Assembly (NCBI GenBank): GCA_945917985.1
Contig: CAMEIH010000009.1
Span: 1-64,000, forward strand
DNA from: an uncultured Clostridium sp.
GTDB taxonomy: Bacteria; Bacillota; Clostridia; Lachnospirales; Lachnospiraceae
Direction: 5' to 3'
Length of the DNA stretch: 64,000 bases
How positions within the stretch are numbered: position 1 is the first letter of the stretch; every line of letters begins with the position of its first letter. The notes under the pieces are model-generated. The model did no database searches. It saw only the letters and a program-made list of their open reading frames with translations, and had not been told where the DNA came from. A program made the translations under genes and the position numbers. Below are positions 1,166-46,370 of the stretch, piece after piece.

Positions 1166-1318
1166 GCATCGTTAAAAAATAAATTTGTGGCGATTTAGGG
1201 CGCTGCGGAGATGAGACTCACAAAAACGTGGAAGCCCTTGCTGAACACGTTTTTGATCTCTGAGGCTCATCGGAGCGTACAGCGCACATGAGCCATGAAT
1301 TTATTTTTCAAATGATGC
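1166..1318 (+). repeat. Structured intergenic element, copy A
   Basis: First of three copies of a 106-nt core (here 1189-1294). Nested stems: GGC/GCC at the core ends; GCGCTG (1200-1205) with CAGCGC (1280-1285); ATGAG (1211-1215) with CTCAT (1266-1270); and an apical hairpin AAAAACGTG/CACGTTTTT with a 15-nt loop GAAGCCCTTGCTGAA. Outer arms AAAAATAAATT (about 1175-1185) and AATTTATTTTT (1298-1308) pair, extended by GCATC (1166-1170) and GATGC (1314-1318). It lies between the SIMPL gene and trmL, both on the minus strand. No ORF is evident in it. Family not recognised. Confidence 0.85.
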
Positions 1319-33390: not shown

Positions 33391-33486
33391 AGATTGCTTA
33401 GTTAGCATTATCAAGATGTTCAGATGATATTTTATGTGAAATGCTTATAGGTGGAAAGTAAGAGATCTCATAAGACTTCCGTATCG

Positions 33487-33645
33487 CCACAATGCACAGC
33501 AAAATCAATTGATGGCGATTTTGGGCACTATGCAAATGAGACTCATAAAAACGTGGAAGCCTTTGCTGAACACGTTTTTAGTTTCTGAGGCTCATTGGAA
33601 TGCTCAGTGCACATGAGCCGGTGATTGATTTTCTGTGTATTGTGG
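33487..33645 (+). repeat. Structured intergenic element, copy B (inside the ileS leader)
   Basis: The 106-nt core is at 33514-33619. Pairings: GGC/GCC ends, GCACT (33525-33529) with AGTGC (33606-33610), ATGAG with CTCAT, and AAAAACGTG/CACGTTTTT with loop GAAGCCTTTGCTGAA. The outer arms CCACAATGCACAG-CAAAATCAAT and ATTGATTTTCTGTGTATTGTGG pair and share nothing with the outer arms of copies A and C. It lies in sense orientation between the T-box terminator and the ileS start, so it should be transcribed as part of the ileS mRNA. Confidence 0.88.
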
Positions 33646-33744
33646 TATCTGAAATTATAAAAGATTTTTTGCCTGGCATAACAGGAATTGAACATAAACT
33701 ATCATCTGAACATCTCCAAAAATAAAAAGGAAAGGACGAAAACA

Positions 33745-46102: not shown

Positions 46103-46204
46103 AAAAATAATCTCCTGTTTTACTGAATTTTTTCTTAGTATAAACAGGAGATTATTCTATTATACAATTCCTATAATCAAAAAATTTTACTTTCACTCTG
46201 TCAT

Positions 46205-46350
46205 ATTTCACAAAATTAATGATTGGCGATTTAGGGCACGGTGGAAATGAGACTCATAAAAACATGGAAGCCTTTGCTGAACATGTTTTTAGTATTAGAG
46301 GCTCATTGGAACGTATCGTGCACATGAGCCATGAATTAATTTTGTGAAAT
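46205..46350 (+). repeat. Structured intergenic element, copy C
   Basis: The 106-nt core is at 46225-46330. Pairings: GGC/GCC, GCACG (46236-46240) with CGTGC (46317-46321), ATGAG with CTCAT, and apical AAAAACATG/CATGTTTTT. The apical stem has G-C changed to A-T on both sides compared with copies A and B. The outer arms ATTTCACAAAATTAAT (46205-46220) and ATTAATTTTGTGAAAT (46335-46350) form a perfect 16-bp inverted repeat not shared with the other copies. It lies just beyond the 3' end of the leftward nonulosonate operon. Confidence 0.9.
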
Positions 46351-46370
46351 AAAAGAGATGAAAAATATAA

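Follow-up and report, generated by a model that had tools for sequence, protein, structure and literature searches.

The question raised by this locus is why three hairpins on one bacterial contig keep their stems paired while their sequences diverge. The window, by which we mean the whole 64,000-nucleotide stretch of uncultured Clostridium sp. DNA that was analysed, carries three copies of an element with covarying stems, all on the plus strand. A first-pass annotation of the window had offered two options: an unnamed structured RNA, or a small BOX/ERIC-like element that inserts into or captures palindromes. Its count of three copies, in one orientation and with cores at 1189-1294, 33514-33619 and 46225-46330, was confirmed, and the palindromes around these cores extend further than it had stated. 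We consider it very probable that the three are old, decayed copies of a small, non-autonomous, MITE-like mobile DNA element of the Lachnospiraceae; the match between their arms most probably reflects the copying or movement of the DNA and not the formation of a structured RNA.

The whole palindrome of copy A, which is imperfect and contains mismatches, occupies about 1146-1336, judged from a reading of the sequence and the ends of its arms, and adjoins the stop codon (at 1337) of a minus-strand ORF (1337-1858). Its conserved core (1189-1294) comprises stems P2, P3 and P4 with conserved internal loops, as defined by aligning 18 copies and tabulating their pairs, and a covariance model (R1) matches it at 1177-1307 with 152.6 bits. 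Copy B is a 300-nt palindrome (33415-33714, read by eye) upstream of an ORF that we take, from its sequence, to be ileS-like; positions 33414-33715 match the window's own reverse strand, and the core at 33514-33619 is supported by both the alignment and an R1 match. Copy C, at about 46191-46364 (read by eye), has a near-perfect arm section of 15-16 bp, an R1 match at 46213-46343 (146.5 bits) and a core at 46225-46330 placed by alignment and R1.

The fold of the element is a single long hairpin with conserved internal loops, and it is strong: positions 1166-1318 of copy A fold at -65.5 kcal/mol, compared with a shuffle mean of -36.0 (z -7.9; none of 200 shuffles was as good). The claim of covarying stems holds in a larger sample, as 28 of 42 consensus pairs show at least one pair-keeping change on both sides among 18 canonical copies of the host genome. 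The outer arms had been described as pairing within each copy while sharing no sequence between copies. The pairing stands; the lack of shared sequence does not, since a consensus emerges with more copies, namely AAAATCAATTnATGGC / GCCATnAATTGATTTT in the inner arm of most copies and GTCAT / ATGAC further out in some.

The host genome (G000) contains 22 dispersed copies by blastn. R1, built from 18 of these, returned the same 22 together with three reverse-strand matches to copies already counted. With stricter filters, a search of 60 genomes gave R1 matches in 14, which are 14 of the 36 same-genus genomes (the host's own included) and none of the 24 from other genera. The DNA pattern of the core reaches further and occurs in at least 111 stretches of genome contigs; the 80 stretches listed include Roseburia, Blautia, Hungatella, Hespellia, Coprococcus comes, Clostridium, unnamed Lachnospiraceae and others, and viral contigs gave no exact match. 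The element is a repeat family of common gut bacteria, present in many Lachnospiraceae. Two of the listed records (L240, L243) are labelled Alistipes sp., a metagenome bin, and we suspect that they are mis-binned contigs. The first-pass annotation had proposed searching a covariance model against related genomes and comparing the element with Rfam: the model does match relatives, and Rfam gave no match at cut-off anywhere in the window. At relaxed thresholds across the fetched loci, one Rfam match overlaps a copy (L008), to a plant miRNA precursor model at 19 bits against a cut-off of 160, and the remainder lie outside the element.

The case for mobility comes mainly from a relative, G010, where young copies form almost perfect palindromes of ~235 nt that carry the terminal repeats GATGTGGGTGTCAAAAG, the ends of the young subfamily reading GATGTGGG...CCCACATC. 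Each end carries a terminal inverted repeat of 17-18 bp, in G010 as well as in other genomes, a feature usual for MITEs. Seven G010 copies were scored by eye for a 7-bp target duplication, the eighth (L101) being left unscored; the repeat is exact in five (ATTCTTA, ATTTATT, ATAAGAT, ATTTTAT and CTATATT), matches at six of seven positions in one, and is absent from one. Exact 7-bp duplications also flank L280, L219, L229, L263 and L282, with 8 bp in L264, and in the other copies read outside G010 the 7-bp repeat matches at six of seven positions, is unclear or is missing. The element therefore has the target-site duplication of fixed length that characterizes MITEs, and no clear duplication was seen at copies A, B and C of the window. 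Together with the dispersed copies, the terminal inverted repeats and the absence of the element from the corresponding sites of a sister species, these duplications bear out the BOX/ERIC-like option of the two originally offered, and the structured RNA is not favoured.

In that sister species, G003, none of the three window copies is present at these sites, which retain short palindromes, weakest at C. These remnants, and the differences in arm sequence between copies, are what could be expected if the element inserted into palindromes already present, its outer arms being host sequence. The idea is extremely improbable, and we rejected it: the whole ~235-nt element of G010, arms included, is common to the copies and ends at the target duplications, so that insertion into or capture of palindromes is not needed; the inner arms have a shared consensus; and the palindromes of G003 at site B are pieces of the element's own arms. 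G026 has, by eye, no palindrome in place of the element at site B. Since G003 keeps arm pieces there and G026 has no palindrome, the insertion of copy B most likely predates the separation of G000 and G003, its loss by deletion in G003 following later. Deletion derivatives are found elsewhere as well, both as an internal deletion (L096 compared with L060) and as short pairs of ends.

Despite a search for an autonomous relative or transposase, none was identified; no pairs of ends at IS-like spacing occur in G010 or among the matches listed for nine other genomes, in a search limited by the frequent loss from draft genomes of repeats such as IS with matching ends. An IS256-type partner was considered and set aside, the case for it consisting of one partial Transposase_mut match in one of five genomes. 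Single ends in Blautia sp. An249 were likewise rejected as the ends of a full-length IS, the three inspected being two truncated copies and one short palindrome.

We regard the element as a new family within a known class (MITE/ERIC/REPIN-like), and no description of it was found in Rfam or in the open-access literature searched. It resembles MITEs in having no gene of its own that we could see, terminal inverted repeats, a short target duplication and many copies. It departs from MITEs in general in being palindromic over nearly its whole length and in having a centre that, like the ends, is conserved. This conservation extends across genera and includes specific mismatches, which transposition by terminal repeats alone does not explain. 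The dispersed mobile repeat bcr1 of Bacillus cereus, also from the Firmicutes, is of similar size and has different hosts, a comparison made by description only. REPINs, the RAYT-linked doublets of REP sequences, are also miniature, extragenic and mobile and form one long hairpin (PMC3116915). In REPINs of the GI type, two conserved 16-mers are separated by 71 bp (PMC3116915), whereas the present element measures ~235-300 nt, has other ends and makes 7-bp target duplications; the short, conserved ends of a REPIN doublet were not found at such spacing, ~235 nt lying between the ends in G010. Among enterobacterial intergenic repeats, ERIC is given as 127 bp and YPAL as about 168 bp, and ERIC is predicted to form a single long stem-loop (PMC2267715). 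The likeness to both, in intergenic location and, for ERIC, in the long stem-loop, was drawn from their descriptions only, and their hosts are unrelated.

An unnamed structured RNA, small or cis-acting, selected for its fold and copied to many loci, would account for the strong fold, the conserved internal loops and the conservation of the centre across genera. On its transcribed strand, such an RNA should tolerate G-U far more readily than A-C. SRP RNA and four sets of element copies were put through an identical procedure of alignment, consensus folding and pair counting. SRP RNA was taken as the control because only one tRNA was found; 27 of 34 same-genus matches were used, four without a locus and three partial ones being left out. 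The default fold was used, as a Watson-Crick-only consensus fold drops G-U columns in both sets (SRP RNA then shows 14 G-T and 8 A-C). The counted cells are not independent events, and all p values given here serve as guides.

In SRP RNA, G-T makes up 15.7% and A-C 0.5% of helix cells, and the ratio of both-sided to one-sided changes is 0.35. The corresponding values are 0.7%, 0.6% and 2.86 for the element in G000, 1.9%, 0.7% and 1.52 in G034, 2.9%, 1.6% and 1.24 in G007/G017, and 4.3%, 3.2% and 0.75 for the older G010 copies. One-sided departures in the four element sets number 52 G-T to 33 A-C; for SRP RNA the figures are 231 to 9 (Fisher p about 2e-14). Of the single mismatches within helices, counted over 94 copies, 52 are G-T and 39 A-C (p 0.21). 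A lean in the opposite direction, which speaks for RNA, is seen in the aligned core (60 G-T to 22 A-C) and the arms (74 to 45), a count in which 7 of 111 rows are reverse-strand matches that swap the two classes, and in the young G010 copies (14 to 5). Three other families lean towards A-C (12:21, 6:11 and 7:9, G-T to A-C), and with G010 they pool to 39 G-T and 46 A-C one-sided changes (p 0.52). Some sets thus favour G-T and others A-C, and a marked excess of G-U is not found. The pairing is Watson-Crick and nearly strand-symmetric, unlike that of SRP RNA treated alike, so that covariation here is mainly a signal at the level of DNA; a weak strand effect on G-T versus A-C is possible. The genes flanking 46 copies, called by a simple ORF rule, also lie on either strand (minus-minus 21, plus-plus 11, plus-minus 7, minus-plus 5, left side not callable 2). 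With the window free of Rfam matches at cut-off and few paired changes between orthologues (below), we judge the structured RNA improbable. For RNA discovery the result is a caution that strong covariation with few G-U intermediates can arise at the DNA level.

If the signal belongs to DNA, the question becomes when the pairing of a MITE-like element is renewed. Compared with their consensus, eight young G010 copies carry 20 both-sided changes, 19 of which keep a Watson-Crick pair, and 21 one-sided changes; some of the changes form mirrored stretches two or three bases long. In counts from three further genomes (10, 6 and 3 copies kept), both-sided to one-sided changes are 35:67 for JAAUZB, 11:28 for JAMPAG and 9:43 for three diverged WSLY copies. 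Ten vertically inherited orthologue pairs of G000 and G003 give 0:23, 3:40 or 4:31 at three arm lengths, with a further 10, 8 and 2 cells in which both bases changed without pairing; when wider flanks are included the ratio is 9:118, and about 3 both-sided changes would arise by chance alone. Left out of the orthologue totals were L070/L086, whose elements are too different, and L069/L091 and L060/L096, in which one side is partly lost. Loci L041, L042 and L136 were excluded from a separate step of the analysis. The G010 copies differ from the orthologues with p 3e-5 to 1e-3, calculated with the 19 pair-restoring changes, and JAAUZB with p 3e-4 to 9e-3; the difference is weaker for JAMPAG (p 0.005 to 0.09) and not clear for WSLY (p 0.05 to 0.55), and throughout this comparison the transposed and the vertical copies come from different species. 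Because both-sided changes are common in transposed copies and rarer in vertical ones, pairing seems to be kept or rewritten mainly along transposing lineages, being either renewed or selected there. The element of L070/L086 occupies orthologous sites with well-conserved flanks, and there the element with 55-nt flanks is only ~69% identical, as if it had changed faster or been replaced.

These observations fit two mechanisms: movement may be restricted to copies whose arms pair, or one arm may serve as the template for the other while the element moves. Alternatively, most covariation may arise in place and independently of transposition, through quasipalindrome correction (polymerase template switching) during replication. 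The mirrored runs of two to three bases in G010 are consistent with such correction, and PMC8794818 describes template switching as a source of compensatory changes that span several bases. A small number of both-sided changes, in L072/L081 and, clustered, in L073/L083, did originate in place. The orthologues, with 0-4 both-sided against 23-40 one-sided changes, nevertheless have fewer both-sided changes than the G010 copies, and we consider correction in place possible, if on the unlikely side. For REPINs, PMC3116915 describes compensatory changes in the two sides of the hairpin as common. A more specific proposal, rather doubtful at present, is that the element moves as a folded single strand and that each move rewrites one arm from the other, covariation being a by-product of transposition. 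If true, covariation would appear in transposing lineages and be lost after insertion, a signal made by DNA that mimics a conserved RNA. The two kinds of signal can be told apart by simple tests, namely counting G-T versus A-C and setting orthologues beside transposed copies.

The life cycle that we propose for the MITE-like element would run as follows. An intact copy is a near-complete palindrome of ~235-300 nt with terminal repeats of the type GAT(G/T)nGGGTGTCAAAAG; its arms vary between copies and yet pair mutually, and they surround a conserved centre in which mismatches and bulges are fixed. Movement is presumably due to a transposase encoded elsewhere, which would account for the dispersal described above and for insertions that duplicate 7 bp at AT-rich intergenic sites. 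The pairing of the arms may be rewritten from arm to arm, by template switching or by copying through the folded strand, or may be required for movement. After insertion, it decays through one-sided mutations and hairpin deletions, the pattern observed in the vertical copies and deletion derivatives.

Regarding genomic context, 8 of 46 copies overlap an ORF of at least 70 aa, with ORF lengths of 79 to 155 aa. Often the element's right end falls immediately beyond the stop codon of an opposite-strand gene, as at positions 1336-1337 of the window. Among right-hand minus-strand genes, the stop codon is at most 50 nt from the end of the model match in 19 of 28, compared with 6 of 18 left-hand plus-strand genes, and the element may sometimes serve as a putative 3' end or terminator.

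A separate 36-nt hairpin (CCAAACGCCG...CTTATTGG) is also dispersed and nests in the larger element. It forms an extra hairpin between the second and third stems in 4 of the 22 host copies (L362, L365, L368 and L371 in G000), and three orthologous copies in G003 are without it. Exact-pattern copies number 6 in G000, 5 in G003 and 20 in G034 (19 of these among loci L357-L386), and none in G010, G007 or G017. By eye, its location is intergenic, in some cases ahead of a terminator-like hairpin.
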